A stretch of DNA of 60,994 bases from Selenomonadaceae bacterium (GTDB taxonomy: Bacteria; Bacillota; Negativicutes; Selenomonadales; Selenomonadaceae): the NCBI GenBank assembly GCA_017412925.1, contig JAFPVP010000139.1:1-60994 (forward strand), written 5' to 3'. Shown here in pieces: positions 21,604 to 49,380 of this stretch. Within the stretch, counting starts at the first letter, position 1. The number at the start of each line of letters is the position of its first letter. Made by a program: the position numbers and the translations under genes. The notes beneath the pieces were generated by a model. The model was not told the DNA's origin. It saw only the letters and a list, made by a program, of their open reading frames with translations, and did no database searches.

Positions 21604-22947
21604 CTAAATTTTTGTAGGTATATTAGGCGGCGGCAATCGCAAGAGACTGCCCAAATATTCATCCGTTCCCGCAGATTTATAGTGGAAAAATCCTGCGTCA
21701 TGCAAGAAAGTTATCTCGCCAAAATATAATCGTTCATTAATCTCAAAAAAATCAATCCGAGCATGTGAAAAACCCTTCGAGAGCTTCGCAGCGAGAATTT
21801 TCATTTGCTCAAAATTTTTCGGACGAGGAATTTTTTCGGGGTGATCGTTATTCGGGTGATTATCTTGCTCAATATTAGTATGTTTCCAGTTCATGTCAAA
21901 ATAATCAAACCTTAAATCCGTCGAACGATTCGTAGCGCAAAAGAAGTAAGCGGGTTCGCCATTAAAACAAAAAACTTTGTAATCCACAAGGTCGAAATGT
22001 TCTTTATCCGTCATAAATTTTTCTGCGATGATTTTTCGTTTAATCGGGCTGTAATGGAGCTCCAAAAACAACATGGCGAAATCCGTCGCGAGCCAAGCAT
22101 TAATTTTTTCGCGAGCCTGTTGCTTATCAAAATTTTTCTTGTCGCGAACGATGATATTCATGCCGGAGCCGTGGTTGCACTTTAGGACAAACTGATTTGG
22201 TAGCGCGTCAAAGTCAATCTCGTCGAAGCTGTCCCACGCGCCCAAGAGCGGAATAAGATACTCTTCGCCGATTTTATCAGCCACATAATCGCGCACGACA
22301 TATTTATCTGCTAAGCGACTTTTGAGCGGCGTTGAATCGTGGAGCTTGAGCCAATTTAATTTTTCCGTAAAAGTTTTCGGATTGTCCAAGTCAAGCTCCC
22401 TGCCCATAGATTGCCGATACATGAGCTTTAAAAGTGGAGCGTACTGTTCGCGCGGCAGATTGTAGAATTGTTTTTGCCGTCCAAGCCGAAAAATCGTCTG
22501 ATTTACAAAATCCGCGTCCGACTGATTCTTTACGTGAAACTCCAGCCCCTCGAAGCAAATGATCTGCGTGCCGTCGCGTTGCCGTAAGTTTATAGGGTTG
22601 ATGATACCCCCCCCCATGTAGCAAATAAATTTTCGCGGCTCGACGCCTAGGCTAAGGAACAACGGAATCGTGTTATTCATATTTTTTGGGGACAAAATAA
22701 AAACCGCGTCGACGAATTTGTAAATGAATTTATTCACAGCCTGCGGAGTAATTACGTCAAGCGTCGCGGGGAAGTTGGGACGCAGCTCCCTGAAGGTTTC
22801 CACCTTGTTAAAAGTCAACGCGCCCCGCAATTTGCCGCTAAGCAGTGCCAAAACTTTGTAGCCGAGATAATTTTTGTCGCGCAGAAAATTTGCCAATCCC
22901 TTCTGAAGTGCAGATTCATCTTCCGCGTAGACAAGTGCAGTTTTCAT
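21604..22947 (-). CDS. TupA-like ATP-grasp protein with poly-G tract (phase ON)
   Basis: The ATG at 22947 is set by GGAGGGC; product 447 residues. Residues about 165-440 match the TupA-like ATP-grasp family of polysaccharide and teichuronopeptide loci (NPKTFTEKLNWLKLHD, FVLKCNHGSGMN, DYKVFCFNGEP, ARIDFFE). Residues 1-150 are a domain I do not recognise. Codons 111-114 (ATG GGG GGG GGT) hold a run of nine G, in frame at present; one base more or less would cut the protein before the ATP-grasp domain. It follows the double-receiver gene by 20 bp. Confidence 0.85.
   Translation of the reverse strand: MKTALVYAEDESALQKGLANFLRDKNYLGYKVLALLSGKLRGALTFNKVETFRELRPNFPATLDVITPQAVNKFIYKFVDAVFILSPKNMNNTIPLFLSLGVEPRKFICYMGGGIINPINLRQRDGTQIICFEGLEFHVKNQSDADFVNQTIFRLGRQKQFYNLPREQYAPLLKLMYRQSMGRELDLDNPKTFTEKLNWLKLHDSTPLKSRLADKYVVRDYVADKIGEEYLIPLLGAWDSFDEIDFDALPNQFVLKCNHGSGMNIIVRDKKNFDKQQAREKINAWLATDFAMLFLELHYSPIKRKIIAEKFMTDKEHFDLVDYKVFCFNGEPAYFFCATNRSTDLRFDYFDMNWKHTNIEQDNHPNNDHPEKIPRPKNFEQMKILAAKLSKGFSHARIDFFEINERLYFGEITFLHDAGFFHYKSAGTDEYLGSLLRLPPPNIPTKI
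22607..22615 (-). repeat. Nine-base homopolymer tract (C9 plus strand, G9 coding strand)
   Basis: The plus-strand context is TTGATGATA-C9-ATGTA. It lies inside codons 111-114 of the TupA-like gene and keeps the frame open. The flanks resemble those of the tract at 33800 (GTTAATA-C8-ATTTA). Confidence 0.9.
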
Positions 22948-22967
22948 GTCATGCCCTCCAATAAAAA

Positions 22968-23954
22968 TCATTTGCGCTTGCGGAGCGTCGACTCGATTAA
23001 AGCAAATCCGTCTTCCGAAATGTTGGGTTTGCGGACGTGCCCCGCCGCCGTCGATTTATTTATCTCGCTGATTACCGCAAAGTCGCGCGTGTCCGTCATG
23101 ATTATCACGGGGATATTTCTGAGCTTGGCGTTGGCGTTGACGAGCGACAAAAATTTCAGCCCGTTGACGAACGGCATATCCAAACTTACGAGCACCAAAT
23201 CCATGCTCTGATTCTCCAAAACTCTCATGCCGTCCGCCGCGCTTTGAGCCGTTGTTATCGTGCAAGGCAGACGATTGCGGAGTATTTCGCGTTCTTGGCG
23301 CAGGTCGAAAATATCATCGTCGATAAGCAGGATATTGAAGGAACTTTTCTGCTGCGTTTCGGCGGGGGGCGTAGCAGGTGCGGCGACTTCTTTTTTGCCG
23401 CTAATCACTCTATTGACGCGCCCGACTAAATCTTTCGGGGAGCAGGGCTTCGTAACATAATCTTGCACACCGAGCGAAAAAACTTCGGCAACAATTTCCC
23501 GCCGCGTCGCGCCCGACATCATCATCACGGGAACTTTTTTAAAATGTTCGTCTTCGCGAATCCGCCGCAACATATCCAGCCCGTTATAATCGGCGTCCAA
23601 GATAACAAGATTTATTTCGCGGCTAATCAGCGTGTTAATCGTCGTCAAGGGATTGTTCGTCGCAAGAATTTTATATTCGGGCAAGCCGCGCTCCAAAACG
23701 ATTTTTGTAATGCTCAAATTGCGTTCGTCGCTGTTGACAATCAGAATTATAACTTCGTTCCTGTCTTCGACGACTTTTTTTAAAGAATTGCTTTTAAGAG
23801 CTTCCATGCGTTCGCCCTGAACTTTTGCCCGTTCCCTGAATTTTTCAAGGCACGACTCGCAATAAAGCCCGCCTTTTATCGGTCGCCCGCAGCCGGCGCA
23901 AGGTCGTCCTCCGCTTAATCGGGCTCTGCTGTCTGAAGATCCTCTTCTTATCAT
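22968..23954 (-). CDS. Zinc-ribbon double-receiver (CheY-like) protein
   Basis: The start at 23954 has AAAGGAG 8 bp before it. The 328-residue product has an N-terminal zinc ribbon (C19-x2-C22 and C32-x2-C35), then a receiver-like domain (about 67-190, DADYNGLDML and MMMSGA) and a second receiver (about 208-328, LLIDDDIFD, SLDMPFVNGL). There is no output domain, so it probably acts by protein contact. The first receiver lacks the usual acidic pair (LIVNSDERN), the second keeps DDD. No kinase gene is adjacent; it precedes the TupA-like gene. Confidence 0.8.
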   Translation of the reverse strand: MIRRGSSDSRARLSGGRPCAGCGRPIKGGLYCESCLEKFRERAKVQGERMEALKSNSLKKVVEDRNEVIILIVNSDERNLSITKIVLERGLPEYKILATNNPLTTINTLISREINLVILDADYNGLDMLRRIREDEHFKKVPVMMMSGATRREIVAEVFSLGVQDYVTKPCSPKDLVGRVNRVISGKKEVAAPATPPAETQQKSSFNILLIDDDIFDLRQEREILRNRLPCTITTAQSAADGMRVLENQSMDLVLVSLDMPFVNGLKFLSLVNANAKLRNIPVIIMTDTRDFAVISEINKSTAAGHVRKPNISEDGFALIESTLRKRK

Positions 23955-24029
23955 TGCAATCTCCTTTACCTCCTCTGCGGAAACGCCAAAATCCTTTCCT
24001 AGTTTACTAAAATTCGCCGATATGTCAAT

Positions 24030-24065: not shown

Positions 24066-24082
24066 GAGTTGCATTTTTATTT

Positions 24083-25531
24083 TCAGCTGTTCATAAGTTT
24101 TTTGTAAAGTTCAATGTATTCGTGCGCCGAATTCTTCCAGCTGTAGTCGCTGTTCATGGCGTTGGAGGAAATCTGCAGCCAAACTTCAAACTGCGCGTAA
24201 GTCGACAAGGCACGTTTGAGCGCGTACATCATTTCATGCGCGTTGTAGTTGCTGAAGACGAAGCCATTGCCCTGCTTGGTGTACTTGTCGTATTGCTGAA
24301 CGGTGTCTTTCAAGCCGCCCGTTTCGCGCACGACCGGAGCCGCGCCGTAGCGCATGGCGATAAGCTGACCAATGCCGCACGGTTCGTAATTCGACGGCAT
24401 GAGGAAAATATCGCTGGAGGCGTAAATTCTCTGCGCCAGTTCGTTCGAGAAATAAATGTTCGCCGAAACTTTCTGCGGGTATCTCCACGCCAAACCTTTG
24501 AACCAATCCTCATAAACTTTGTCGCCAGTGCCGAGCAGAACGAATTGGAAATCCTCGTGCTGGAGGAGTTCGTCCATCATGCGGACAACCAAGTCGAGAC
24601 CCTTAGCCGCAACAAGACGAGTAACCATCGACACAATCGGAATCTTTCTGCCCTGCGGAAGTCCGAGGAGCTCCTGCAGTTTAATTTTGTTCTCGCACTT
24701 CTTATCGAAGGCGGCGTAGGCGTCGGAGGCGTCGTAGTTCACGAACAAATCTTTATCGGTCGCGGGATTGAACTTGTCGTAGTCAATGCCGTTGACAATG
24801 CCGTACAAATCATCTTTGCGGCTGCGGAGAAGTCCGTCGAGGTGTTCGCCGAAGTATTCGTATTGAATCTCCTGCGCGTAAGTTTTGCTGACGGTGGAGA
24901 CGTAATCGGCGTAGATGATGCCGCCTTTCATGAAGTTGACCGCGTCATAGAATTCGAGGTCGCCGTTGTTGAAATATTTCCAGTCGAGACCGAGCACATC
25001 GCCCATAATGTCTTTGGTGAACACGCCCTGATATTTGAGGTTGTGAATCGTGTAGAGCGTCTTGATATTTTCGTAACGTTCGTCGCCTTGGTGTTCGAGT
25101 TTCAAAAGGACGGGAACCAAGCCGGCGTGCCAGTCGTTGGCGTTGATAACGTCGGGGAAAAAGTCAATCGCGGGCAAGCAATTCAGAATCGCACGGCAGA
25201 AGAACGAATATCTTTCCGCGTCGTCGTCGTAGCCGTAAAGCCCTTCGCGAGCAAAATATTCTTCGTTGTCGACGAAATAATAAGTCACGCCGTCAAGATC
25301 GTATTTGTCAATGCCGACGTACTTTGTGCGCCAAGAAACGGGGATTGTCCCGTCATAAACGTGCTCCATGCCTTCGCGATATTTCTCACCGATTTTGCTG
25401 AACTTCGGGAGGATAACGCGAACGTCAACGCCCTGCTCCTTGAGAGCTTTGGGGAGAGAACCTGCCACATCGGCGAGACCGCCGGTCTTCACAAACGGAA
25501 CTGCTTCCGACGCCACATAAAGAACTTTCAT
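24083..25531 (-). CDS. glgA: Glycogen synthase (ADP-glucose)
   Basis: GT5 enzyme that extends alpha-1,4-glucan from ADP-glucose. It starts with VLYVASEAVPFVKTGGLADV, whose KTGGL binds the nucleotide sugar, and has the C-terminal EPCGIGQLIAMRYGAAPVV signature. Length 482 matches the family. It is the last gene of the glg operon, 18 bp after glgB. Confidence 0.97.
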   Translation of the reverse strand: MKVLYVASEAVPFVKTGGLADVAGSLPKALKEQGVDVRVILPKFSKIGEKYREGMEHVYDGTIPVSWRTKYVGIDKYDLDGVTYYFVDNEEYFAREGLYGYDDDAERYSFFCRAILNCLPAIDFFPDVINANDWHAGLVPVLLKLEHQGDERYENIKTLYTIHNLKYQGVFTKDIMGDVLGLDWKYFNNGDLEFYDAVNFMKGGIIYADYVSTVSKTYAQEIQYEYFGEHLDGLLRSRKDDLYGIVNGIDYDKFNPATDKDLFVNYDASDAYAAFDKKCENKIKLQELLGLPQGRKIPIVSMVTRLVAAKGLDLVVRMMDELLQHEDFQFVLLGTGDKVYEDWFKGLAWRYPQKVSANIYFSNELAQRIYASSDIFLMPSNYEPCGIGQLIAMRYGAAPVVRETGGLKDTVQQYDKYTKQGNGFVFSNYNAHEMMYALKRALSTYAQFEVWLQISSNAMNSDYSWKNSAHEYIELYKKLMNS

Positions 25532-25549
25532 AATATAAACTCCCTCCTG

Positions 25550-27481
25550 TTATCGCTTGTTTTTGGGGAAATATTTTTCTTCTAAACTTTCCGCCGCGTG
25601 CTTTAGGTAAATCGTCGCCAGCGGCGGGATTGTCAATTTAACCGAGTGACTGCTGTTGTGATACGGAAAATCCTCCGTCGACAATTCGGGATTCGCAACG
25701 CCACTGCCGCCGAATTCAGCCGCGTCCGAGTTAAAAACTTCGACGTACGCGCCCTTGTCGGGGACGCCGATTCGGTAATTTTCGCGGAGATTTGGCGTGA
25801 AGTTGCAGATAACTATCAAGTAATCGTCGCTGTCCTCCGCCTTGCGAATAAAGGAAACTACGCTGTTTTCGTTGTCGTTGCAGTCAATCCAGCGGAAGCC
25901 GTTCCAATCGAAATCGACTTGCCAAAGTGCTTTGTTATCCAGGTAAAACTTATTCAAAGCCCGCGAATAATCCTGCATTTGCTTATGCTTTTCGTATTGT
26001 TCGACGAGGTGCCAATCTAAGCCGGCGTCTTCGTTCCACTCTATGAACTGCGCAAATTCGCCGCCCATGAACAAAAGTTTTTTGCCGGGGTGCGCCATCC
26101 AGTAGCCGAAGAAACAACGCAAGCCCGCAAATTTTTGCTCGTACTCGCCGGGCATTTTCTCAATCAGCGAGCGTTTGCCGTGAACAACTTCATCGTGCGA
26201 AAGCGGCAGGATAAAATTTTCCGCGAAAGCATACATGAACGAGAAAGTAACTTTGTCGTGATTCCACTTGCGATAAATCGGGTCGAGGCTCACGTAAAAC
26301 AGCATGTCGTTCATCCAACCCATATTCCACTTGTAATTGAAGCCCATGCCGCCCATATAAACGGGCTTGGAAATGAGCGGCCACGAGGTTGACTCCTCCG
26401 CCATCATCAACGCTTGCGGGTGGTACTTGAAGACAGTTTCGTTGAGTTTCTTAAGGAATTCGACAGCCTCTAGGTTTCCGGTGTCGCCGTAGCGATTTGG
26501 AGTCCACTCGCCCGCCTCGCGTCCGAAGTTAAGATACAACATATTTGCCACGCCGTCAATCCTTAAGCCGTCAATATGGAACTCTTCAAACCAGAAAAGC
26601 GCGTTGGAGATTAAAAAGCTTTGAACTTCCGTGCGTCCGTAGTCGAAATTGAGCGTGCCCCAGCCGCGATTTTCCGAAAGCTGCGGGTTGTCCGATTCGT
26701 AGAGATTGACGCCGTCGAATTCGCGCAAGCCCTGCTCATCTTTGCAGAAATGCCCCGGCACCCAATCCATGATAACGCCGATATTATTTTTGTGCGCCGT
26801 CTCGACCAGGTAGCGGAAATCGTTCGGTTCGCCGTAGCGACTTGTCACCGCGAAGTAGCCCGTCGTTTGATAGCCCCAAGAATTATCCAGCGGGTGTTCC
26901 GTCAACGGCATGAACTCGATATGCGTGTAGCCCATTTCCACGACGTATTTTATCAAACGATCAGCCAGCTCGCGATAGCTCAGATATTCGCCGTTCTTGC
27001 GTTGCCAAGAGCCCGCGTGCACTTCATAAATCAGCATGGGGTGCGAGTAGGAAGATTGACGCTTTTTGACTTCCTGCCACTTTGCGTCACGCCAACTGTA
27101 ATTTTCCAAGTTGTAAAGTTTCGACGCGGTGTTGGGACGTTTCTCCGCCCAGAAGCCGTAGGGGTCGTCCTTCATGATGTGAGCACCGCCGTTTTGCGGC
27201 AGAATGGCGTATTTGTAAAGGTCGCCCTGCTTGAGCCCTTCGATAAAAGTTTCCCAAGTTTCGCCGTCTCCGAGCCGAATCATACGGTTGACGCGGTTGT
27301 CCCAGTTATTGAAGTCGCCGACCACGCTGACGGATTTGGCATGCGGTGCCCACACTGCAAAGCGCACGCCTTTTTTGCCGTCGCGCTCCACGAAGTGCGC
27401 ACCGAGTATTTCGTAAGCGTGATAATTCGTTCCTTGGTGGAAAAGATAGAGACTGTATTCGTTGAGGTTGGATGTCTTCAT
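25550..27481 (-). CDS. glgB: 1,4-alpha-glucan branching enzyme
   Basis: GH13 enzyme of 643 residues with an N-terminal CBM48 (about 25-110, VWAPHAKSVSVVGDFNNW) and a catalytic barrel. The nucleophile Asp lies in GLRIDGVANM, the acid Glu in MMAEESTSWP, and the transition-state residues in LSHDEVVHGK. It introduces alpha-1,6 branches into glycogen. Intact and of normal length. Confidence 0.97.
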   Translation of the reverse strand: MKTSNLNEYSLYLFHQGTNYHAYEILGAHFVERDGKKGVRFAVWAPHAKSVSVVGDFNNWDNRVNRMIRLGDGETWETFIEGLKQGDLYKYAILPQNGGAHIMKDDPYGFWAEKRPNTASKLYNLENYSWRDAKWQEVKKRQSSYSHPMLIYEVHAGSWQRKNGEYLSYRELADRLIKYVVEMGYTHIEFMPLTEHPLDNSWGYQTTGYFAVTSRYGEPNDFRYLVETAHKNNIGVIMDWVPGHFCKDEQGLREFDGVNLYESDNPQLSENRGWGTLNFDYGRTEVQSFLISNALFWFEEFHIDGLRIDGVANMLYLNFGREAGEWTPNRYGDTGNLEAVEFLKKLNETVFKYHPQALMMAEESTSWPLISKPVYMGGMGFNYKWNMGWMNDMLFYVSLDPIYRKWNHDKVTFSFMYAFAENFILPLSHDEVVHGKRSLIEKMPGEYEQKFAGLRCFFGYWMAHPGKKLLFMGGEFAQFIEWNEDAGLDWHLVEQYEKHKQMQDYSRALNKFYLDNKALWQVDFDWNGFRWIDCNDNENSVVSFIRKAEDSDDYLIVICNFTPNLRENYRIGVPDKGAYVEVFNSDAAEFGGSGVANPELSTEDFPYHNSSHSVKLTIPPLATIYLKHAAESLEEKYFPKNKR

Positions 27482-27511
27482 TAATCAATCCTCCTTCCCC
27501 TTAGCCCCCGA

Positions 27512-29974
27512 TTATTGAATCTTGCAGGGTTTGATGTTCCAAATTTCAGCGGCGTATTCGTCAATCGTTCTGTCCGAAGAGAACCTGCCGGAATTGGCGA
27601 TATTCATAGCCGCCGAACGGAGCCAGCCCATGCGGTCAGCGTAGCGAGCATAAATTTCGCTGTGCGCGTCGATATAGGCGTTAAAGTCTTTGAGGATAAA
27701 GAATTCGTCGTTGCCTTGAATCAGATAATCGCGCAGAGAATGGAAGTTGCCGTAGGTGCCGTCGGTGAGCTTGTTGATGACCAGCTGCACGTTCGGATTG
27801 CTCGTGTATTCGTTCCAAGCGGAGTAAGTTCCGTTCTCGTAATAAGCAAGAACTTCGCCCGCCTTAAGCCCGAAGATAACGATATTGTCATCGCCGACAG
27901 CCTCACGAATTTCGACGTTCGCGCCGTCGAGTGTGCCCAAAGTTATCGCGCCGTTCATCATGAATTTCATGTTGCCAGTACCTGACGCTTCCTTAGACGC
28001 CGTGGAAATTTGTTCGCTGACGTCCGCCGCAGGATAAACAATCTCGCCGATAGACACGCCGAAGTTTTCGATAAAGACGACTTTTAAGCGGTTGTCAATC
28101 GATTTGTCGTTGTTGACCTTGTCGGCAATCGCGTTGATAAGGCGAATCGTTTCCTTGGCGATGTAGTAACCAGCCGCCGCCTTGCCGCCGAAAAGATACG
28201 TCGTCGGGAGCGGTTTATAGCTGGGGTCGTTTTTAAGTTTATCGTATTGCCACATGATGTGGAGCGCGTTCATAAGCTGGCGTTTGTAGGAATGAATGCG
28301 CTTGACTTGAATATCAAAAATCGTGGTCGGATCAAGCTCAATGCCCTGATGTTTTTTAATGAAGTTAGCGAGGTCGGTCTTGCGAATCAGTTTAATTTCG
28401 TCGAGTTCCTTCAAAACTTTTCTGTCGTCGACGGATTCGTTAAAGAGGTCGAGCTGTTCGGGGTGGCGGTGCCAGACGCGGCTTCTAATCGTTCTGTCGA
28501 TAAGGTCGGCGAGTTCGGGGTTGTTGCCCATGAGCCAGCGGCGGTGCGTAATGCCGTTGGTTTTGTTGTTGAACATGCGCGGCCAATATTCGTAGAAGTC
28601 ATGGAGCGTCGTGGATTTGAGAATATCGCTGTGAATGCGGGCGACGCCGTTGACCGAATGCGAGCCGACGATTGCAAGGCGTGCCATGTGGACTTCGCCG
28701 CCTTCGATAATCGACATTGCGCGGAGTTTTTCGACGTTGTTCGGATAGCGCGCTCTGACGTATTCGAGATGGCGGCGATTAACTTCGTCGATGACCATGT
28801 AAATGCGCGGCAGGAGCGTTTTGAACATATCGACCGGCCATTTCTCCAAAGCTTCAGGCATAATCGTGTGGTTCGTGTAAGCGACGACTGCGCGGGTAAT
28901 CGTCCAAGCTTCGTTCCATTCGAGTTCGTAATCGTCAACCAAAATGCGCATAAGTTCGGCGACGCAAAGCGCGGGGTGCGTGTCGTTGATGTGAATCGCA
29001 ATTTTCTTGTCGAGTTCGCGAATATTGCCGCCGGAGCGAACGAAATGCCGAATGATACTTTGCGTGCCCGCCGAAACGAGGAAGTATTCTTGAATCAGGC
29101 GCATGCGTTTGCCTTCGCTGGAGCTGTCGTCGGGGTAAAGGTACTCGGTGATACTTTCGACAAATTGGCGGTATTCGTTTTTGGCGCGCATTTGTTCATG
29201 CGTCAACATGCCGTAATCGGAAAAGTCGCGGTTGACTTCGGCGTTCCAAAGGCGCAGCGTGTTGACGGTCTTGTTGTGGTAGCCGACAATCGGCACGTCG
29301 TAGGGAACAGCCATGACGGTCATTGCGTTTTCGTGAACGAGCTTAAGCGAGCCGTCAGCCTGCTCCTTCATGTAGGCGTTACCGTTGAATTTGACGTTGA
29401 TTGACTTGTCGGGCTTGCGATATTCCCAAGCAAAGCCGTCGCGCAACCAGTTATCGGGAATTTCAACCTGTTGCCCTTGAATAATTTTCTGTTCAAACAA
29501 ACCGTATTGGTAACGGATAGAGCAGCCGTGACCGGGCAGACGGTGCGCCGCGAGCGAATCGATAAAGCACGCCGCCAAACGTCCCAAGCCGCCATTGCCC
29601 AAACCTGCGTCGGGTTCTTCCTCGTAAATGTCGTCGAGGTTCAAGTCGAGGTCTTCGAGGACTTCGCGGAACGCTTCGTCAATGCCGAGGTTGATAAGGT
29701 TGGCTTTGAGGAGCCGTCCCATCAAAAATTCAATCGAGAAATAATAAACTTGCTTTTCCTGCCTGTCCATGTAGGCGCGGTTGGTCTTTATCCAGTTTTC
29801 GGAGATGACCTGCTTAGCGACCGCCGCGACCGTTTTGTAAATTTCGTTCATCGGCAATTCGTGAACGTCGCGCCCGAACATGATGTGCGCCGAGCTGATG
29901 AAACGGTTTTTGAGTGTTTCCTTGAGTTTTTCGTACTCCCTGCTGTGTGCAGTTTTGTTTGCATCCTTTGCCAA
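27512..29974 (-). CDS. glgP: Glycogen phosphorylase
   Basis: GT35 enzyme, 820 residues, releasing glucose-1-phosphate from glycogen. The PLP lysine lies in ASGTGNMKFMMNGAITLGT and the N-terminal half has GLGNGGLGRLAACF. The start is a TTG at 29974 behind GGAGGAATACAC; an internal ATG would truncate the conserved N-terminus. Its place inside the synthesis operon links storage and mobilisation. Confidence 0.97.
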   Translation of the reverse strand: MAKDANKTAHSREYEKLKETLKNRFISSAHIMFGRDVHELPMNEIYKTVAAVAKQVISENWIKTNRAYMDRQEKQVYYFSIEFLMGRLLKANLINLGIDEAFREVLEDLDLNLDDIYEEEPDAGLGNGGLGRLAACFIDSLAAHRLPGHGCSIRYQYGLFEQKIIQGQQVEIPDNWLRDGFAWEYRKPDKSINVKFNGNAYMKEQADGSLKLVHENAMTVMAVPYDVPIVGYHNKTVNTLRLWNAEVNRDFSDYGMLTHEQMRAKNEYRQFVESITEYLYPDDSSSEGKRMRLIQEYFLVSAGTQSIIRHFVRSGGNIRELDKKIAIHINDTHPALCVAELMRILVDDYELEWNEAWTITRAVVAYTNHTIMPEALEKWPVDMFKTLLPRIYMVIDEVNRRHLEYVRARYPNNVEKLRAMSIIEGGEVHMARLAIVGSHSVNGVARIHSDILKSTTLHDFYEYWPRMFNNKTNGITHRRWLMGNNPELADLIDRTIRSRVWHRHPEQLDLFNESVDDRKVLKELDEIKLIRKTDLANFIKKHQGIELDPTTIFDIQVKRIHSYKRQLMNALHIMWQYDKLKNDPSYKPLPTTYLFGGKAAAGYYIAKETIRLINAIADKVNNDKSIDNRLKVVFIENFGVSIGEIVYPAADVSEQISTASKEASGTGNMKFMMNGAITLGTLDGANVEIREAVGDDNIVIFGLKAGEVLAYYENGTYSAWNEYTSNPNVQLVINKLTDGTYGNFHSLRDYLIQGNDEFFILKDFNAYIDAHSEIYARYADRMGWLRSAAMNIANSGRFSSDRTIDEYAAEIWNIKPCKIQ

Positions 29975-30078
29975 GTGTATTCCTCCTTTTGCTACAAGAT
30001 TGGTGTGTTTCTGAACGTCATTTTATCAAACAGAAAAAAACTTGGCAACATTGATTTATTGAATCATAACCGCAGAAA

Positions 30079-30125
30079 CGGCGAATTTTTACGCTTGGGC
30101 ATGTCCCGCCTGTAAAAATCCGCCG
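30079..30125. other. Long hairpin between glgD and glgP
   Basis: CGGCGAATTTTTAC (30079-30092) pairs with GTAAAAATCCGCCG (30112-30125) with two mismatches, around a GGG-CATGT-CCC inner stem. There is no T-run after it. It may act as an RNA processing or stabilising structure between glgD and glgP. Confidence 0.5.
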
Positions 30126-30141
30126 CTGAAATTCAATTAGG

Positions 30142-30211
30142 AATGCTCAGTGCGTAATGCGTAATGATTTTGGTTTTAATTGCGCATTTCGCATTACTCA
30201 TTACGCATTGC
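30142..30211. repeat. Intergenic palindrome of repeated GTAATGC units
   Basis: The left arm AATGCTCAGTGCGTAATGCG (continuing TAATG) is mirrored by CATTACTCATTACGCATT on the right, with extra partial units. It lies directly behind the glgD stop, inside the 240-bp glgD-glgP gap. Its design is like the palindrome at 17005-17073. Confidence 0.65.
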
Positions 30212-30214
30212 TTT

Positions 30215-31324
30215 TCAGATTCTTGCTTTTTTCGTGACGATGTAAGGATAATTTTCCGCGCCTTTGAGCCAGCGATTTTTGGTGATGATAACTTCTTTAT
30301 CGCAGATGACATTTTCGACGCGGGCACCCTCTTGAACGTCGCAACGCTGCATGAGGATGGAGTCTTTGACGACCGCGCCCTTGCCGACGATGACGCCGCG
30401 GAAGATTATGCTGTTTTCAACCGTGCCGCGGATTTCGCAACCGTTGGCGATGAGCGAATTTTTGACGTTGGCGGTCTCTTTGTATTGGACGGGAACTTCG
30501 TCTTTGACCTTCGTAAAAATCGGGCGGTCGTTGTTCATGAAGAGTTCTTCCCAAACTTCGGGCTTGAGGCAGTCGCGGTTGGCCGCGTAATATTCCATGG
30601 TGGAATTGATGTGCGCAACGTAGCCTTCGTGTTTGTACGCGCAGATTTTGAATTCGCCAGCGTGACGAATCAGCGCGTCAATCAAGAAGTCCTGCCCGCC
30701 GCGTTCATAAGCGGAGCGGACGAGATAAGCGAACGTCGGCACGGGCATAAGATACGCGCCCATAACGTCTTTTTCGCCGGCTTTGATTGCGGGCACTTCC
30801 GCCAAGTCGGTGACGATGCCGTTGGTGCTGGTCTGGATAACGACGCTCTTGCCTGCGCGGTCGATTTGCGCCTTGGAATAAACCATGGTGATTTCCGCGC
30901 CGCTGTCTTTATGGAACTGGAGAACTTTTTCAAAGTCGATGTTGTAAATGTAGCTGGCGTTGGTCAAGAGAACATATTGACGCCCGCTGAGTTCGGCGAA
31001 GTCGAGGTTGGCGTAAATGTCTTTGAGGTCGCCTTTGCGCGAATCGTTATCGGGCAGGGCGGCGGGCAAATAGGTCAAGCCGTCGCGGCGGCGAGCCAAA
31101 TCCCAATCTTTACCGGAGCGGATGTGGTCGAGCACGGCGCGGGAGAAATCGGGCAGAAGAAGACCGACGATGCTCATGCCGGAGTTGACCATGTTGGAAA
31201 TGGCGAAGTCGACGAGGCGATAGCGTCCCGCGAACGGCAGAGCCTCGACCGCGCGAGTCGCTGCCAATTCTCTAATCAGACTGTTGCCTTCCTGAAGATT
31301 TATAATCCCCACTACTTGTTTCAA
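30215..31324 (-). CDS. glgD: Glucose-1-phosphate adenylyltransferase regulatory subunit GlgD
   Basis: The 369-residue protein is related to GlgC but has the GlgD-type N-terminus GIINLQEGNSLIRELAATRA instead of the catalytic GGQGSRL loop, and a left-handed beta-helix C-terminus. In Firmicutes GlgD pairs with GlgC to modulate ADP-glucose synthesis. The start is a TTG at 31324 with CGGAGG nine bases before it. Confidence 0.94.
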   Translation of the reverse strand: MKQVVGIINLQEGNSLIRELAATRAVEALPFAGRYRLVDFAISNMVNSGMSIVGLLLPDFSRAVLDHIRSGKDWDLARRRDGLTYLPAALPDNDSRKGDLKDIYANLDFAELSGRQYVLLTNASYIYNIDFEKVLQFHKDSGAEITMVYSKAQIDRAGKSVVIQTSTNGIVTDLAEVPAIKAGEKDVMGAYLMPVPTFAYLVRSAYERGGQDFLIDALIRHAGEFKICAYKHEGYVAHINSTMEYYAANRDCLKPEVWEELFMNNDRPIFTKVKDEVPVQYKETANVKNSLIANGCEIRGTVENSIIFRGVIVGKGAVVKDSILMQRCDVQEGARVENVICDKEVIITKNRWLKGAENYPYIVTKKARI

Positions 31325-31368
31325 TTCAAAGCACCTCCGAATTTAGGTTAGTAGAACTAACTCCCTAA

Positions 31369-32502
31369 TTACGCAGTGACGACAGAGCCTTCGGGGACGA
31401 CGAAAATTTCGCCCTCTTTGCCTTCGACTTTCGCGCCCGCTTTAATGACGGCGTCCTGAGCGATGATAGCGTAGTTGACAACCGCGCCTTCTTCAATGAC
31501 AGCCGACGGGAGAACGACCGAGTTGGTGACTTTCGCGCCCTTGCCGACGCGCACGCCCTGGAAGATAACGCACTGTTCGACTTCGCCTTCAATCTTCGCG
31601 CCCTCGTTAATCATAGCCTTCTTAACGGAAGCATACGGACCGATAAAGTGCGGCGGCAGCGACGGATTATCCGAATAAACTTTGTGGTCGCCTTTGAGGT
31701 CGAAGGGCGGCTGGTCTTGGAGCAAGTCCATATTTGCCTGCCAGAGACTTTCAATCGTGCCGACATCTTTCCAATAGCCTTCAAACGCATAGGAGAACAT
31801 GCGCGCGCCGTCCGCCAGCATTTTCGGAATCAGGTCGTTGCCGAAGTCATGCGTCGAATCTTCTTTTACGCCGTCTTCTTCGAGATACTTTTTGAGGAAG
31901 GGTTTCGAGAAAATGTAAATGCCCATCGAGGCAAGGTTGGATTTGGGTTCTTTGGGTTTTTCCTGGAACTCGGTAATGCGACCGGTCTCTTTGTCGGTGA
32001 CCATGATACCGAAGCGCGGAGCCTCTTCCCAAGAAACTTCAAAGACGCCGATTGTCACGTCCGCATTGTTCTGCTTGTGAGCTTTGAGCATCCACGAATA
32101 ATCCATGGTGTAGATATGGTCGCCGGAGAGAATCAGCACGTAGTCGGGGTCGGCCAGGTCGATGAAGTTAAGGTTCTGATAAATGGCGTCCGCCGTGCCA
32201 CGATACCAATCCGCGCCTTTTTCGCGAGCGTAAGGAGGAAGAATGAACACGCCGCCGCCCGTGCGGTCGAGATCCCACGAGCTACCGCTGCCCAAGTAGT
32301 TATGAAGTTCGAGCGGCTTATACTGGGTAAGCACGCCGACTTTTTCAATGCCCGAATTTGCACAGTTAGAGAGCGGGAAGTCGATAATGCGATACTTTCC
32401 GCCGAACGGTACTGCCGGCTTCGCAACGGTTTTCGTCAAGGCCTTGAGGCGGCTGCCCTGCCCGCCGGCCAATATCATTGCCAAGCACTCTGTCTTTCTC
32501 AT
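31369..32502 (-). CDS. glgC: Glucose-1-phosphate adenylyltransferase
   Basis: Makes ADP-glucose from glucose-1-phosphate and ATP, the committed step. The 377-residue protein has [16 protein letters not shown] at the N-terminus, substrate motif [10 protein letters not shown] and a C-terminal beta-helix. The ATG at 32502 is preceded by AGGGGGG; an upstream in-frame codon at 32550 lacks such a site. First gene of the glg operon. The 158 bp upstream hold no clear promoter hexamers. Confidence 0.96.
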
Positions 32503-32620
32503 AGAATAATCCCCCCTGAACGAAATACAAACTCCAACTTTCCGAAGCAAGGCTTCATTATCAAGGCATTTCTACGCGCCGCGCCTTTTTCCTGCCCAAA
32601 CTTTCAGAAAAATTTTTACG

Positions 32621-32660: not shown

Positions 32661-33901
32661 TTACATTGCTTTAATTAGCGGATAAGAGTTTAGAGGCAAG
32701 CCCTGCGCCTCCGACAAAAATTCTAATCCGTTTACGAAATCGCTGTTCGGGACGAAGCCCGCTTGAATCAGTGCTTGAAAGGGGAAAGCAGGCAACATAA
32801 TGAAGAAAACTTTTTTGCCGCGTGAAGCATTCATAGCGTCGAGCAATTTTTGCAGTGACGCTTGATTTTCGGCGAGGATAATTTCTTCGTCGTCACGTAT
32901 CAAGAAAAATTTTTTCAATCCGTCAACATCACGAGGCGGCGTGAAAAAGGCGCGAGTCTTGCCGCTCATCATTGCCGAAAGATTTACAAGCGACTGTTTC
33001 AGCTCAATGTGCATTTTCTGAACGCCCGCGTAAAGCCGACCGATCGTCTCCTCGTCAAACCACGGCGTCTTCATAAAATATTTAAGCCACAGCCGATTGA
33101 ACGGTTCATTTACATTCAAACCTAAAGTTGGATTTGTACAATGATAAATTGCGTTTTGAATCTCAATTCTTCCTTGCGACCGCTCATTGCAAATAAAACG
33201 GTCAAACTTTTCAGGCAGTCTGAAATAATTTTTGGAAAAAAGATAATTCCAAATGTCTTGGTCGAAGCAATTACATTGCGGGTGTTCGCCACGCCACTTA
33301 ACGCCGCTCATAATGAGTTCTTCGGCTTGACGTAAATATTTCAAGTTCATTAACAGAAGACCAGCATTAAAATATTCTTCGTATTTGACAAAGCCCGCAG
33401 TCAGCAGATATTTCTGCGCAGCGTCGTGAGTTTTGTAATTAAAGGCATTGGCTTCCATTTCGAGGACGGCGGCAAGCGGTTTATCGTCGAGGTTGATTTT
33501 CCACAATTCCTGTATATCCAAATTAACCAGCATATCCGAATCCAAGTAGATAACTTTGTCAACGTCGGCGGGAATAACTTCAGGAATCAAGAGTTTGAAA
33601 AAAGTCCCTATAGTTGACCACGCAGTTTTTATAGCCGGAATCAGCCGCCAGAATTCGTTAATCTTATCCGCGTGGAGTGCTTCGACGTTATAGAATTTCA
33701 CAAGCTGATTAAATTGTCCTGCTACGTAAGAAAATTTATCGCGGTTGTCGCTCGTCAAAGTATTATCGTGAAGGAGGTGCACCGTGACAGATGGTAAATG
33801 GGGGGGGTATTAACATTCTCAAGGAGCGACAACATAGCCGTTCCCGTGAATTTTGAATAACGCCCTGTTTTGTCGTGGAGAACGAAGCAAACATGAATCA
33901 T
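32661..33901 (-). CDS. GT8-1: family 8 glycosyltransferase, phase OFF by C8 tract
   Basis: The true start is the ATG at 33901 (MIHVCFVLHDKTGRYSKF..., AAGGGGCG before it), as in the paralogues. At codon 32 a run of eight C shifts the frame, and translation would stop after 48 residues (TGA just past the tract). Downstream the other frame encodes the whole rest of a GT8 protein: VHLLHDNTLT, the nucleotide-sugar/metal motif YLDSDMLVNLD, DYFNAGLLLMNLKYLR-like segments and the family C-terminal domain, with no other damage. Nine C would restore a product of about 413 residues. Last gene of the minus array. Confidence 0.85.
33800..33807 (-). repeat. C8 tract (coding strand) in GT8-1, out of frame
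   Basis: The coding-strand context is GTTAATA-C8-ATTTA. The tract begins in codon 32. The number of C must be a multiple of three for the frame to continue, so eight is OFF. Confidence 0.92.
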
Positions 33902-33912
33902 CGAATCGCCCC

Positions 33913-35124: not shown

Positions 35125-35164
35125 AAAATCACTCCTTTTTAAGTAAACGAGCTTAGCGACATTT

Positions 35165-36382: not shown

Positions 36383-36419
36383 AAAATCACCCTTTTAAAT
36401 AGTGAGAAAAATTTCTTCC

Positions 36420-37649
36420 TTACAACACGTGAATGAGCGGATAGCTATCGACTGCCACGCCCTGGGCTTCAGACAGAAACGTCCAACCTTTTACAAAGTC
36501 CTTGCCCTCGACAAATCCAGCTTCGGTCAGTCGTTCAAACGGGAATTTTTTCTTCAAAAACTTTTCCGTCATGATAAAGAACACAGCCGTGCCGTTGGCG
36601 GTTTTCATCGCTTCGATTAACTCTTTAATGGAGCGGGCACTTTTGGCGAGGATAACTTCTTCGTGCTTTTGTATGGAGAAAAACTTTACCGTTGACGCTT
36701 TATTTTCGGACTCAACAAAGAACGCGCGCGCTTTGCCTTGCATTGTCGTAGCAATATTCAAAGCCGCCTCCCTTGAATGGTTGTGGATTTTTTGGAAACT
36801 CGCCTGGAGCCGCCCGATTGTCTCCTCGTCAAAGAACGGAGTTTTAATAAAAGAATTCATCCACAGCTTATTGAAGGGGTCGTCCATTTCCATGCCGATT
36901 TTCGAGGCGAAACCCACAAAGTGATAAATCTTTTTCCCTGGCGACAGTTTATCGCGGCGTTCATTTCTGACGAAACGATTAAATTTTAGCGGCAACTTCA
37001 AAGTGCGTGTGGAGAAACAATAATTCAAGACGGTTTGATCCAAAAACTTTTGCTTGGGATTATCGCCCCTGAACTTGATGCCTTGCATTATCGTTTCTTC
37101 CTCGTCGCGTAAAACGTTCAGATTCATGAGCAGGACGCCGCTGTTGAAGTAATCTTCAGCTTTTACCATTTCTTCGCTACAAAGGAGGAAAGCTTTATCG
37201 GAGTTGGTGCCATTCGCCGCTTCCGTGACGACGCCCATGGCTTTATCATCAAGCTCGGTTTGCCAAAGTTCGCTTAAATCCAAATTAACTAAAACGTCCG
37301 GGTCAAGGAAAATAACTTTATCAATGTTTTTCGGGAGAACTTGCGGAATCAAAAGTTTGTAGAAGGCTCCGACAGTGACCCGCGATTTATCCACATCGGG
37401 AACAAATTCGATAATCCTAGCAAGTTTCTCCGGACAAAGCTCGTCGAGATTGTAAAAGCTCACGAATTGCCCGTAGCGACCGGCAAGATAAAAGAATCTG
37501 TCGCGATTGTCGGGCGTCAACGTGTTATCGTGGACAATATGAACCGTGACTTTTGAGCGAGTATTTTCAAAAATCGACAACATTGTCGTAGCCGCGAACT
37601 TTGCATAACGTCCTGTCTTGTCGCGGAAACACAAACAAACATGAATCAT
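36420..37649 (-). CDS. GT8-4: family 8 glycosyltransferase
   Basis: Intact 409-residue paralogue with FLDPDVLVNLD as the DXD motif, DYFNSGVLLMNLNVLRDEEE, and the shared C-terminal domain. It is the first gene of the minus array, 5 bp upstream of it lies the DUF5693 stop, so the array is probably transcribed with the DUF2993-DUF5693 genes. Confidence 0.9.
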   Translation of the reverse strand: MIHVCLCFRDKTGRYAKFAATTMLSIFENTRSKVTVHIVHDNTLTPDNRDRFFYLAGRYGQFVSFYNLDELCPEKLARIIEFVPDVDKSRVTVGAFYKLLIPQVLPKNIDKVIFLDPDVLVNLDLSELWQTELDDKAMGVVTEAANGTNSDKAFLLCSEEMVKAEDYFNSGVLLMNLNVLRDEEETIMQGIKFRGDNPKQKFLDQTVLNYCFSTRTLKLPLKFNRFVRNERRDKLSPGKKIYHFVGFASKIGMEMDDPFNKLWMNSFIKTPFFDEETIGRLQASFQKIHNHSREAALNIATTMQGKARAFFVESENKASTVKFFSIQKHEEVILAKSARSIKELIEAMKTANGTAVFFIMTEKFLKKKFPFERLTEAGFVEGKDFVKGWTFLSEAQGVAVDSYPLIHVL

Positions 37650-41578: not shown

Positions 41579-43174
41579 TTAATTTTTCGGTTCTAGTTTT
41601 ATTTGAATCGAGTTTAATTTTTGCCCGTGAGAATAGATTATCTCGCCGTTTTTCGCCCAAGGTGTCCACTCGCCGTCAAATTTGTGCATGCGATAGAGAA
41701 TATCAAAATCTTTTGTGCCCGCCTCGTCAAGCCAAACTTTCATGCCATATATAGGCTTAGTTTTGCCAGTTGTGCCTGCCATTTCCCCGTTTGCGACCAC
41801 CGCTGACCAGCCTTCCTGGGCGTTGTAGTAGACGGAATAATAAACTTTATGTTCGGAGAAATCTATTTTTATTGCCTGAATGTCAAGTTTCTGATCGAGA
41901 GGGTTGCTGATTTTATCTTCGCTACTCCAATCGCCCCAACCTTTAGTATGAATATGCGTCTGATACGTAAGTAACGGACGCAGTTGCTCCCAATGAGGCG
42001 GCATACCATAAGACGCTATTAAGTCCTCATGACGTTTAATTTGTTCCATGAAGGTCGTGAAAGTTATACCGTAACCTATCTTTTCTTTGGGGGAAATGCT
42101 ACGATTTCTTCTTACAGGACTTTTTACGTATTCCAGAAAACTTCTGAAATTATCTTCTTCATATCCGTCAAATTCGTCATTAAAAAATCTTTTAAGCTGT
42201 TCGCTGATAATAAAACAAAATGAATCATGATTAATATTGAAAATGGACATTGTAGAATCCACGTAATTTGCATTCAAGGAACAAATTTGATCAATTAATG
42301 GCTGATAATTTGTAAATGCATTGGCAGAACGCGGGATAAAAATAGTTTCCGTACCGTCGCGCAAGAAAAGGGAATTGTGTGCACACGAACCGGCTGTAGA
42401 CGCAAAACTTTCCGCATTTATCATGAGATTGAGTTGTTCGTCGAGTGTCAACAATTCGGGGCGAATAATCTCATAGCCCTTGCCCTTGAAATATTGCGCC
42501 AAGCGTTCTTCGCCAACCTGACTTCGACCGTAGAAATAATAAATTTTTTTGCTTGCCGTCGGCGTGCGATTTTTTATTGCGAAGTTTCTAACGCAGTCGA
42601 TTGTCTCGCGATACTCGTTGGTAAAGATACTGCAAAAAGAGCCCTCAGGCAGGATAATTTTATCGAACCGTGTTGGTTGAGTTATCGGCTGAAGTTTGTC
42701 AATATCAATTTCCAAAATCTCAAGTAATCGTTTGAAATTTTGTTGACGCTCAATCGGATATCCTGACCAAGGAATATATACAATCGGGCAGTTCTTGAAT
42801 TCGTTTTTGAAAGCCACGTCTTTTAAGAACCATACGCGACGAATATTCTCAGTTATGGCATGTCCCCAGACATGGAAAAACATTCCAAGATAAACGGCTG
42901 TTTGTGATTTATGTACAATTGATTCAGAAGGGGGGGTATAAGCTCCGTCCATACCGTTGAGGACATGAGAATTTTTTACAAAACCACCATTATTATCGAC
43001 AATGCCACCTGCTCCCCAAACTCTTCGCAACGGTTCTTCACTAAAGATTCTTTTATGCGGAAGGATCGTACCGTGTTCAATAACGTTAAATCCCAATTTT
43101 TTTTCGCTAAAATAATTTTTAGTGAAAACTTTTTTTGCGGCGTCCGGGTTGTAAAGATAATCAAGATTAACCAT
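41579..43174 (-). CDS. GT61-type glycosyltransferase with C-terminal ChW-like domain and C7 tract (phase ON)
   Basis: The ATG at 43174 has AAAGGAG upstream; product 531 residues. The middle part (about 80-320) matches the DUF563/GT61 family (YLGMFFHVWGHAITEN, YGRSQVGEERLAQYF, STAGSCAHNSLFLRDG). The C-terminal 130 residues contain a Clostridial-hydrophobic-W-like pattern (HIHTKGWGDWSSED, YYNAQEGWSAVVANGEMAGT), usually a surface-binding repeat. Codons 80-82 are ACC CCC CCT, a run of seven C that is in frame. It lies between the FakA-like gene and prfB. Confidence 0.85.
   Translation of the reverse strand: MVNLDYLYNPDAAKKVFTKNYFSEKKLGFNVIEHGTILPHKRIFSEEPLRRVWGAGGIVDNNGGFVKNSHVLNGMDGAYTPPSESIVHKSQTAVYLGMFFHVWGHAITENIRRVWFLKDVAFKNEFKNCPIVYIPWSGYPIERQQNFKRLLEILEIDIDKLQPITQPTRFDKIILPEGSFCSIFTNEYRETIDCVRNFAIKNRTPTASKKIYYFYGRSQVGEERLAQYFKGKGYEIIRPELLTLDEQLNLMINAESFASTAGSCAHNSLFLRDGTETIFIPRSANAFTNYQPLIDQICSLNANYVDSTMSIFNINHDSFCFIISEQLKRFFNDEFDGYEEDNFRSFLEYVKSPVRRNRSISPKEKIGYGITFTTFMEQIKRHEDLIASYGMPPHWEQLRPLLTYQTHIHTKGWGDWSSEDKISNPLDQKLDIQAIKIDFSEHKVYYSVYYNAQEGWSAVVANGEMAGTTGKTKPIYGMKVWLDEAGTKDFDILYRMHKFDGEWTPWAKNGEIIYSHGQKLNSIQIKLEPKN
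42930..42936 (-). repeat. C7 tract (coding strand) in the GT61 gene, in frame
   Basis: The coding-strand context is GCTTATA-C7-TTCTG. It has the same ATA-before-C form as the other three tracts. A change of one base would truncate the protein after about 80-100 residues. Confidence 0.8.
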
Positions 43175-43188
43175 AAGCAAACTCCTTT

Positions 43189-46872: not shown

Positions 46873-46884
46873 GGAGGAATTTTT

Positions 46885-48117
46885 ATGATTCACGTTTGCT
46901 TAAGCCTTTATGACAAGACGGGACGCTACTCGAAATTCACGGGCACGACGATTTGCTCAATCTTTGAAAACACAACTTCAGACGTAACGGTTCATATCCT
47001 CCATGACAACACCTTGACTGACGACAACCGCGACAAATTTATTTACCTTGCTGGTCGCTACGGTCAAGCCGTAAAATTTTATAACGTTAAGAAATTGTGC
47101 GCGGAAAGACTTGCCGAATTTATCGAATTTTTTCCCGCTGTAAAATACTCTCATGTAAGCGTCGGCACAATGTACAGATTTTTGTTGCCGGAAATTATTG
47201 CCCCCGAAATAAAAAAGCTTATCTACCTCGACTCGGATATAATCGTCAATATGGACATCAAAGAACTTTGGCAGATTGAACTCGACGACAAAATTCTTGC
47301 CGCCGTGCCCGAAATTTTGAGTTTTAAGACTATCGAAAACATGGAGAAGAATTTTCCGCTGTGTAAGCAAGGTTTTATTAGGTGTGAAGATTACTTCAAC
47401 AGCGGCGTGATTTTGATAAATCTGGATCTTTTGCGCAAGGCAAAGGAGACCATTATTGATGGCTTGAAATTCTTTGAAGAAAATCCTCAACCTGTCGGCT
47501 ATCCCGGGCAAGACATTTGGAACTATTGCTTTTCAGCAAGGTCGTTGAAGTTGCCGATTAAATTCAACCAGTTCACATACTATGCCAGACGCGACGAGGA
47601 GTCGCTTGCTAAAAAAATTTATCACTACGCGGGCGGGAGTTTTGGTCTCGGCTTGGGGCTTGACATAAGCGATTCGTTCAATCGGCTGTGGATGAATTAT
47701 TTTGTTAAGACGCCGTGGTTCGACGCAGATTCAATCGGGCGGCTTTACGAGGGCTTCCTGAAGGTTCGCGGCGAATTAGAAAAATCTGCGCTGAAACTTT
47801 CCGCGACTGTGAGCGGCAAGACACGTGCTTTTGTCGTCGCAGAAAACAAGCTTAACGTGCTCGTCGAAAATTTCTCCGTCAGAAATGATGAGGAAGTTTT
47901 CGCCATCGAATCAACCTTGCCCATGCAAAAATTAATCGACGTAATGAACGCTTCGCGCGGCAAGAAAATTTTCTTTATCCTGTTACCAGGATTTAAATTT
48001 GATAAGCTGACGGAAGCAGGTTTCGTTCGCGGCGAAGACTTTTTAGACGGCTACGATTTTCTGACTAAAGATAACGAATTGAAGAAGGAAGCTTATTCAC
48101 TTGTGAGTAAAATGTAG
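46885..48117 (+). CDS. GT8-5: family 8 glycosyltransferase
   Basis: Intact 410-residue paralogue, 12 bp behind the FtsA-like gene with GGAGG. It has YLDSDIIVNMD and the shared C-terminal domain, and at the codon 32 site ENTTSDVTVH without a homopolymer. First GT8 of the plus array; its nearest relative here is GT8-7, with long identical stretches. Confidence 0.9.
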   Translation: MIHVCLSLYDKTGRYSKFTGTTICSIFENTTSDVTVHILHDNTLTDDNRDKFIYLAGRYGQAVKFYNVKKLCAERLAEFIEFFPAVKYSHVSVGTMYRFLLPEIIAPEIKKLIYLDSDIIVNMDIKELWQIELDDKILAAVPEILSFKTIENMEKNFPLCKQGFIRCEDYFNSGVILINLDLLRKAKETIIDGLKFFEENPQPVGYPGQDIWNYCFSARSLKLPIKFNQFTYYARRDEESLAKKIYHYAGGSFGLGLGLDISDSFNRLWMNYFVKTPWFDADSIGRLYEGFLKVRGELEKSALKLSATVSGKTRAFVVAENKLNVLVENFSVRNDEEVFAIESTLPMQKLIDVMNASRGKKIFFILLPGFKFDKLTEAGFVRGEDFLDGYDFLTKDNELKKEAYSLVSKM

Positions 48118-48128
48118 GAAGTGATTTT

Positions 48129-49380
48129 ATGATTCACGTTTGCTTCGGGCTTTATGACAAGACGGGACGCTATTCAAAATTCACGGGCACGACGATTTGT
48201 TCCATCTTTGAAAATGCTAATACCCCCCCTATCAGTCGCCGTGCATATCTTGCACGACAATACCTTGACTGCTGACAATCGCGAAAAATTTTTTTATCTT
48301 GCTGGTCGCTACAATCAAACCGTGAACTTTTACAATGTGGAGGAACTTTGCGCGGACGAGCTTGAAAAATTTTCTCGGCTGATACCTTTCATCAAAAGTG
48401 CTAGGACGACAATCGGAACCTTCTACAAATTTTTAATCATGTACGTCCTCCCGAAAGAAATTGAGAAAGTTATCTACTTGGACGCGGACATAATCGTCAA
48501 TCTTGACATAAAAGAGCTTTGGCAAGTTGAACTCGGCGACAAACCGCTCGGCGCAGTGCCCGTGTACCTGCAAGACAAGAACAAAGCCGACGGCATTAAT
48601 CGAATGAGAACCGGTTTTAACTTACCCCGTCTCGGTCTCGTCAAGGAAGAAGATTATTTCAATGCTGGTGTTTTTGTCATGAATTTAAAACGCTTGCGCA
48701 ACGAGGAAGAAAAAATTTTAGGCGGAATGAAATTCAGGGGCGAGCACCCCGAATTCTTGATGTTCGACCAGTGCATTTGGAATTATTGTTTCTCGAAAGA
48801 ATATTTGAAGTTGCCGATTAAATTCAATCGCGAAGTCGTTGAAGTTCGCACGCAAGACGGCGGTCTCGTCGAAAGGAAAATTTATCACTTCACGGCGGAC
48901 AATTCTTTATGGAGTTTCGGGCTGGACATGAACGACGCGCTCAATCGTTTGTGGATGAACTATTTTATAAAAACGCCCTGGTTTGATTCTTCAACATTTG
49001 GGCGGCTACACGAGGCGATTCAACAACTCTGCACCAACTTTAAAAGAGATATGGCTAATCTTTCGTCCTTGATGGTTGGCAAAACGAGAGCTTTTTTTAC
49101 CTTACCTCAAAATATCGAAGGAATAAAAAAATATTTTTTGATTCGCGAGGACGAAGAAATTATCCGAGCCGAAAATCAAGCGTCGCTCCAAAAATTGCTC
49201 GACGCCATGAGTGCTTCGCGCGGCAGAAAAATTTTTTTCATCATTGTGCCGAATTTCCCGTTCCAAGCATTGATTCAGGCGGGTTTCGTTTATGGCAGAG
49301 ATTTTTTTAACGGTATTGAATTTTTCTCAAAGGAACAGGGAGTGCCGTTTGATTCCCACAAATTAATTAAATCCATGTAA
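48129..49380 (+). CDS. GT8-6: family 8 glycosyltransferase, phase OFF by C7 tract
   Basis: The true start is the ATG at 48129 (MIHVCFGLYDKTGRYSKF, AGGAAGTG before it). A run of seven C at codon 32 throws translation out of frame, ending after 48 residues. The downstream frame is intact: VAVHILHDNTLTADN, YLDADIIVNLD and the shared C-terminal domain to the stop at 49380. Six or nine C would restore about 416 residues. An alternative start in the downstream frame at 48154 would replace the conserved N-terminus with unrelated residues and lacks a ribosome site. Confidence 0.85.
48223..48229 (+). repeat. C7 tract in GT8-6, out of frame
   Basis: The context is GCTAATA-C7-TATCA, starting in codon 32, exactly as in GT8-1. 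Seven C is not a multiple of three, so this copy is OFF. Confidence 0.92.

Follow-up and report, generated by a model that had tools for sequence, protein, structure and literature searches.

Why should homopolymeric runs in different genes be preceded by nearly the same bases? This question is raised by a stretch of 60,994 nt of DNA from a Selenomonadaceae bacterium (GCA_017412925.1, contig JAFPVP010000139.1, positions 1 to 60,994 of the forward strand; hereafter the window). It contains exactly four C/G runs of at least seven bases, namely C9 at 22607-22615, G8 at 33800-33807, G7 at 42930-42936, and C7 at 48223-48229. Read on the strand that carries the C-run, the preceding bases are TGATA, TAATA, TTATA, and TAATA in window order. 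The original prediction that TNATA precedes all four runs was thus confirmed at each position. We found that a flank common to non-homologous genes, independent of the coding strand and different between lineages, is real. All positions given for the window are window coordinates; the own genome is labelled G000, relatives carry other G-numbers, and tract regions carry L-numbers.

Within the window alone the excess of runs is modest. CCCCCCC matches seven times compared to 2.49 expected matches, and 4 of 100 dinucleotide shuffles reach seven. The four tract genes belong, in window order, to the Pfam families TupA ATP-grasp, GT8, GT61, and GT8, which are all glycan-related. They had been regarded as four unrelated genes, a point that has to be corrected. 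The GT8 genes at 33800 and 48223 have the same N-terminus (MIHVC...ENxNTPP) and carry the tract at the identical codon. They are paralogues, and the window therefore provides three independent cases.

We then considered the runs of the whole genome. G000 (2.59 Mb, 211 contigs, completeness 94.9) contains 37 runs of seven or more bases and 23 of nine or more, whereas about 25 and 0.6 are expected by extrapolation from the shorter runs of the window. Consequently, the number of 7-base runs is near chance but that of the long runs is not. At least one run of nine or more is present in all 60 genomes sampled from the genus, and G040, listed as 100% complete, has 88. The genomes are draft assemblies, one per species. 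The genus of G000 includes Quinella sp. 1Q7 (G177), nine tract coordinates of which are identical in G188. Of the GT8 relatives found by name, the closest comes from the sheep reticulum genome RGIG6564 (G186, 85% identity); its tract coordinates match those of G185, which is listed in the same genus. All 37 runs of the own genome were examined, and 36 entered the flank counts, one being dropped for its short flank. For the relatives, runs of nine or more were used: 21 of 22 in G152, most of 28 in G125, 9 of 9 in G177, 11 of 12 in G180, and 58 of 88 in G040; further, 20 of 31 in G189, 18 of 18 in G186, 13 of 26 in G164, and 7 of 7 in G168. These were first-listed or clustered places and not a random choice, and runs with short flanks were dropped (57 of the 58 runs of G040 were used).

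Slipped-strand mispairing is the established mechanism for length changes at such runs. Among coding runs flanked on either side by 70 or more open codons, pooled over all fetched sets, only 48 of 103 runs of nine or more are in frame (5/13, 12/24, 13/37, 8/11, and 10/18 by set), compared to 434 of 473 runs of four or five bases. Fourteen tract regions of G000 were compared with G186, and 12 alignments span the tract. Four of the 12 were left out as too diverged or ambiguous. The run length differs in seven of the remaining eight pairs; for one of the seven, L054, the cause is a T-to-C substitution bordering the run and not an indel. Outside the run the pairs show 0 to 4 gap columns, except one pair with 13. 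The GT8 tract at 33800-33807, for example, is a run of seven at the same place in G186. Homologues of the GT61 gene carry runs of 6-11 bases at the Tyr-Thr-Pro site in 8 of the 24 hits printed, the others having none, and 11 of the 75 listed GT61 matches begin at residues 79-82, that is at the tract position, one of them at a contig edge. No C/G run of six or more was present at the tract place in the 16 printed rows of TupA homologues (some places appear twice). As runs occur in only some GT61 homologues and TupA homologues lack them, tracts come and go. With the excess of long runs, the loss of frame conservation, and the length change between orthologues, the tracts show the features of poly-G/C contingency loci, and the phase variation put forward for the window runs stands. 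Judged from these alignments and reading frames, it is well supported that the genes would be switched through gain and loss of bases at the tracts.

The bases beside the runs were analyzed next. TNATA precedes 8 of the 37 own runs, with no match in the reversed control. Four of these are the window runs, and the other four come from the 33 runs elsewhere in the genome. It is too narrow as a motif, and the claim that TNATA itself is the shared element did not survive the search of the genome. The trinucleotide ATA stands directly 5' of the run in 17 of 36 own cases, compared to 0 of 36 in the reversed control and 51 of 5465 runs of 3-5 bases from the own loci and those of the relatives. On the 3' side the own tracts tend to RKTYAACCT, so that the overall pattern is roughly AATA-Cn-RKTYAACCT. 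TNATA forms one portion of a broader DNA context on the two sides of the run, which is degenerate and strand-asymmetric. ATA-C9 was found 120 times in 28 genomes of the genus, the reversed pattern 15 times. In the three genomes of a second genus of the family, g18 (G018, G045, and G062), the counts are 14 and 1, and in the remaining 120 genomes sampled from the family they are 7 and 8. The 3' pattern C8-RGTCAAC was found at 37 sites, distributed over 17 of 66 genomes of the genus, and its reversed control had no match; the 37 sites include genomes used to derive the pattern and some homologous genes.

Other genomes have other flanks. The tracts of G040 read TTG-C12-GA, where position -1 is G in 93% and position -2 is T in 81% of the cases (cluster-weighted). 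The G152 flank is TA-C9-KTGTSGG, in which positions +4 and +9 are T and position +6 is G, and G180 has A at +1 and C at +2. The position-wise divergence from the short-run background was reached in none of 1000 draws for G000, G152, G125, and G180, and it was reached in 35 of 1000 draws for G177. When 152 tracts of six genomes were compared in non-homologous pairs, the flank similarity was 6.21 of 16 within genomes and 4.51 between genomes, a difference that none of 2000 label permutations reached. Although G040 contributes 1544 of the 2543 within-genome pairs, similarity within exceeded similarity between genomes in each of the six genomes singly. The same measure on runs of 4-5 bases gave a difference of 0.25 on average and 0.46 at most.

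Tracts could also be assigned to a lineage by their flanks. In a leave-one-out procedure 20/30, 15/21, 17/24, 4/9, 8/11, and 51/57 tracts of the training genomes fell into their own class. With homologues removed from the training set, the held-out genome G186 had 16 of 19 tracts and G168 5 of 7 tracts assigned to class A, G164 7 of 13 to class D, and G189 11 of 20 to class B; this test was partly unblinded, as the G186 and G189 flanks, together with a single tract from G164 and another from G168, were known beforehand. Finally, models were applied across coding strands, from C-coding to G-coding tracts and the reverse. With homologues kept in, the fraction of tests above the 90th percentile of the other lineages was 0.56 and 0.58 for A, 0.81 and 0.87 for G040, and 0.35 and 0.50 for B. 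Since it crosses coding strands, the flank belongs to the DNA itself rather than to the encoded mRNA or protein. A constraint at the protein level was for this reason ruled out as the source for the whole set, yet it is the origin of TATAC in the GT61 gene. The permutation, held-out, and cross-strand results together bear out the predicted common flank in non-homologous genes irrespective of the coding strand; runs spread evenly over gene classes with random flanks, the outcome named beforehand as speaking against it, did not occur.

How could such a flank, for which slippage by itself does not account, have arisen? We favour, as the probable explanation, that the tracts are contingency loci at which C-run growth or persistence is determined by the sequence context. 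Long poly-C or poly-G runs in genes, some of them between -35-like and -10-like boxes, would gain or lose bases, and the change in length would switch the genes by frameshift or by altered promoter spacing. Slipped-strand mispairing would be the mutational step, and tract length would vary among the cells of one population. The flank would decide where C-runs grow or persist as long tracts, presumably with a lineage-specific replication, repair, or DNA-binding factor reading the bases beside the run. Two observations are relevant here. First, most tractless GT61 homologues keep TATAC or TACAC, coding for Tyr-Thr, beside the tract site, so that the flank can predate the run. Second, the information of the motif resumes at a distance from the run, in G000 at positions +7 to +9 and in G040 at positions -5 to -9. 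Asymmetric, strand-crossing, and with distant information, the flanks look like a recognition sequence.

The main alternative is that ectopic gene conversion or template switching between tracts copies the neighbouring bases and thereby homogenizes the flanks throughout a genome. In line with this, the information peaks beside the tract and declines with distance in most sets, and exact sharing of six or more bases exceeds the null expectation in half of the tests, for example on the 3' side of G000 (5 pairs compared to 0.31) and of G040 (20 compared to 0.89). On the other hand, the motif is gapped, returning at the distant positions given above, and the TATAC of the GT61 gene is old coding sequence that most homologues without a tract retain. 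Divergence of the flanks between sister species is not raised, and by eye a part of the exact sharing stems from promoter-like tracts with a common core. Taken together, copying between tracts appears rather unlikely, but it is the competing explanation to be reckoned with.

Several observations weigh against context-determined growth or persistence of the runs. The flank motif is degenerate, and 10 of the 30 own tracts were not assigned to class A, the class of the other 20. Prior knowledge also entered the held-out test, in that we knew the class B label of G189 and the appearance of G186 before it was done. Class B is not one clade, as G180/G177 and G189 stand apart on the rpoB tree, on which G152 and G164 pair with full support; this tree is built from one rpoB stretch per genome (raw longest stop-free stretches, G186 left out), and its forks are partly supported. 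Lineage D, with 8 of 11 coding tracts in frame, departs from the loss of frame seen in the other lineages. Between the sister species 11 of 158 positions within 10 bases of the run have changed compared to 358 of 3720 further out (p 0.33), and neither flank constraint nor hypermutation is evident from this comparison. In 6 of 12 tests unrelated genes have identical stretches of at least six flank bases in common more often than the column-shuffled null gives, a result equally compatible with conversion or with sub-classes of tracts. A search that covered reverse transcriptase and MutL identified no candidate factor. As to the latter, a MutL domain was found in 13 of 14 genomes including G000, which means that the instability of the tracts is not explained by MutL loss; a mutator of this kind was rejected on MutL only, MutS not being part of the search. 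G177 (Quinella sp. 1Q7) is the single genome lacking a MutL match, and this gap may reflect incompleteness of the assembly.

A more specific form of the favoured explanation is that the Quinella group possesses a dedicated, fast-evolving factor that reads the asymmetric flank and drives or licenses C-run growth, with a recognition sequence particular to each lineage. We regard such a putative factor as a tentative proposal that is doubtful at present. If it were true, contingency loci would be created at chosen sequences in unrelated genes and not by random slippage.

Less probable than copying between tracts is that these are ordinary poly-G/C contingency loci with flanks that resemble each other by paralogy, base composition, or codon preference. 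The paralogy of the two GT8 genes and the conserved protein sequence at the GT61 flank are of this nature. However, the flank signal persists without homologous pairs and without homologues in the training set, is absent from short runs of the same loci, and crosses from C-coding to G-coding tracts (here with homologues kept in). This explanation is strongly disfavoured and we consider it improbable.

The original prediction had also offered a site-specific insertion or extension process as the cause. In one version a reverse transcriptase of the diversity-generating or a related type would use an RNA template to write both the C-run and the flank, and this would account for flanks that are uniform within and different between genomes. 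RVT_1 (PF00078) had no match in G000, G040, G152, and G180, although a more diverged enzyme could escape this model; G125 has 16 matches, many of them partial, and G177 has one. Lacking the reverse transcriptase in these four genomes, a diversity-generating retroelement was rejected, and templated writing, the reverse-transcriptase version of the insertion or extension process, is very unlikely. Assembly or homopolymer error in the metagenome-assembled genomes is the least credible source, for although these are drafts with some tracts at contig ends (for example C17 at base 19 of contig C75), independent assemblies show tracts at matching positions in almost identical surroundings, and errors would not yield lineage-specific flanks.

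The four tract genes of the window differ in their present reading state. The TupA-like ATP-grasp gene (21604..22971, minus strand, 455 aa; PF14305, 1.7e-53) contains the C9 tract (22607..22615, plus strand), which is G9 on the coding strand and in frame. The GT61 gene with ChW repeats (41579..43180, minus strand, 533 aa; PF04577, 1.4e-9, and PF07538, 9.6e-14) is likewise in frame across its tract of C7 on the coding strand (42930..42936, minus strand), which falls at YTPP. Both GT8 genes are split by the tract, with the halves in different frames (OFF). The first (32661..33901, minus strand) has C8 on the coding strand (33800..33807, minus strand); its N-terminal part starts from the ATG at 33901, and its C-terminal part is the ORF (open reading frame) 32661-33782, a piece that matches PF01501 (1.1e-25). 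The second (48129..49380, plus strand; PF01501, 2.2e-24) has C7 on the coding strand (48223..48229, plus strand), an N-terminal part from the ATG at 48129, and a C-terminal part within ORF 48154-49380. Altogether there are seven GT8 paralogues in two groups of the window, 32661-37649 and 46885-50621, two with the tract and five without; Pfam was run on four of the seven. The minus-strand ORFs at 24083-32550, situated between two of the tracts, have by eye the look of a glycogen operon (synthase, branching enzyme, phosphorylase, and two ADP-glucose pyrophosphorylase-like genes).

Genome-wide, the restriction to glycan genes seen in the window (4 of 4 by Pfam) does not hold. Glycan or sugar-modifying families account for 11 of the 37 own tracts: the four window genes, a GT2 gene, a GT2/glycerophosphotransferase/capsule-synthesis gene, a hexapeptide transferase, three FkbM genes, and one TylF methyltransferase. 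Another 11 of the 37 fall into other Pfam families including radical SAM/SPASM, flagellin, RTX repeats, a LytTR regulator, a transporter, MatE, and a racemase; one of these matches (L039) is below the curated cut-off. For the remaining 15 there was no Pfam match or the tract was outside the Pfam scan. The tract genes of this Quinella-group rumen bacterium may be mostly surface-related, judged from raw counts in which 11 glycan genes stand beside 15 unmatched or unscanned tracts. The flagellin gene has a G7 run at L044 2494-2500 (G000 contig C101), with the halves of the conserved N-terminal region in different frames. If this run is real, flagellin itself may switch. The tract at L056 1120-1128 separates two response-regulator pieces, of which the downstream piece is of the LytTR type by Pfam, and a related gene in G180 has a run of 12 (L178 1543).

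Some tracts are promoter-like. The own tracts L040, L048, L052, and L054 have by eye a TTGACA-like box, a constant core, the G-run, and an ATAAT-like box in common; likewise by eye, several tracts of G040 show TTGACACT, then the G-run, and then a TATAAT-like box. L054 (2556-2563) is situated upstream of the start of an RTX-repeat protein, and the L040 tract (2495-2504) upstream of an ORF with similar repeats (by eye). From this arrangement the L040 and L054 G-runs are possible phase-variable promoters of large RTX-repeat proteins. The AGGTTGAC-Gn-ATTAT tracts were also considered as ordinary sigma-70 promoters; by eye the spacing is too short for most of them, and this assignment was rejected.

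The location of contingency tracts is usually put down to slippage together with selection acting on the gene. A flank that is common to unrelated genes, independent of the strand, and specific to the lineage means that the DNA beside the run matters, and the question of a flank effect becomes testable through flank swaps. In addition, a large set of probable surface switches is gained for Quinella, an uncultured rumen genus of interest for its link to low methane emission.

We found no work on phase variation with homopolymeric tracts in Selenomonas. The literature listings on phase variation in Negativicutes, on simple sequence repeats of rumen bacteria, and on flank effects at tracts contained nothing on point. 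In the main text of the Quinella genome paper the terms 'phase variation', 'homopolymer', and 'frameshift' do not occur, and in that of the Campylobacter PhasomeIt paper 'motif' and 'sequence context' are likewise absent (PMC6321876).

The tracts described here belong to the known poly-G/C contingency kind, and the poly-G phasome of Campylobacter comes closest to them, in tract type and frame logic alike. As in Campylobacter, G/C runs of seven or more occur in many genes, mostly within ORFs, and homologues vary or are free of tracts (PMC6321876). C is on the coding strand in only 5% of the Campylobacter ORF tracts and the lengths peak at 9-10 (PMC6321876). Here, in contrast, 24 of 69 assigned tracts of lineage A and 23 of 50 of G040 have poly-C on the coding strand, and the runs of G040 peak at 12, with 50 of 58 being 11-13 long. 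Helicobacter canadensis, a member of another phylum, is comparable with about 29 tract-bearing coding regions reported in one genome (PMC2823697). The promoter-like tracts resemble the C-stretch promoters of the Bordetella fim genes, where the length of the tract in the promoter alters transcription (PMC1891110). In the predicted promoters of G000 and its relatives the G-runs lie, by eye, between TTGACA-like and TATAAT-like boxes and, unlike the Bordetella tracts, carry the flank of their lineage.

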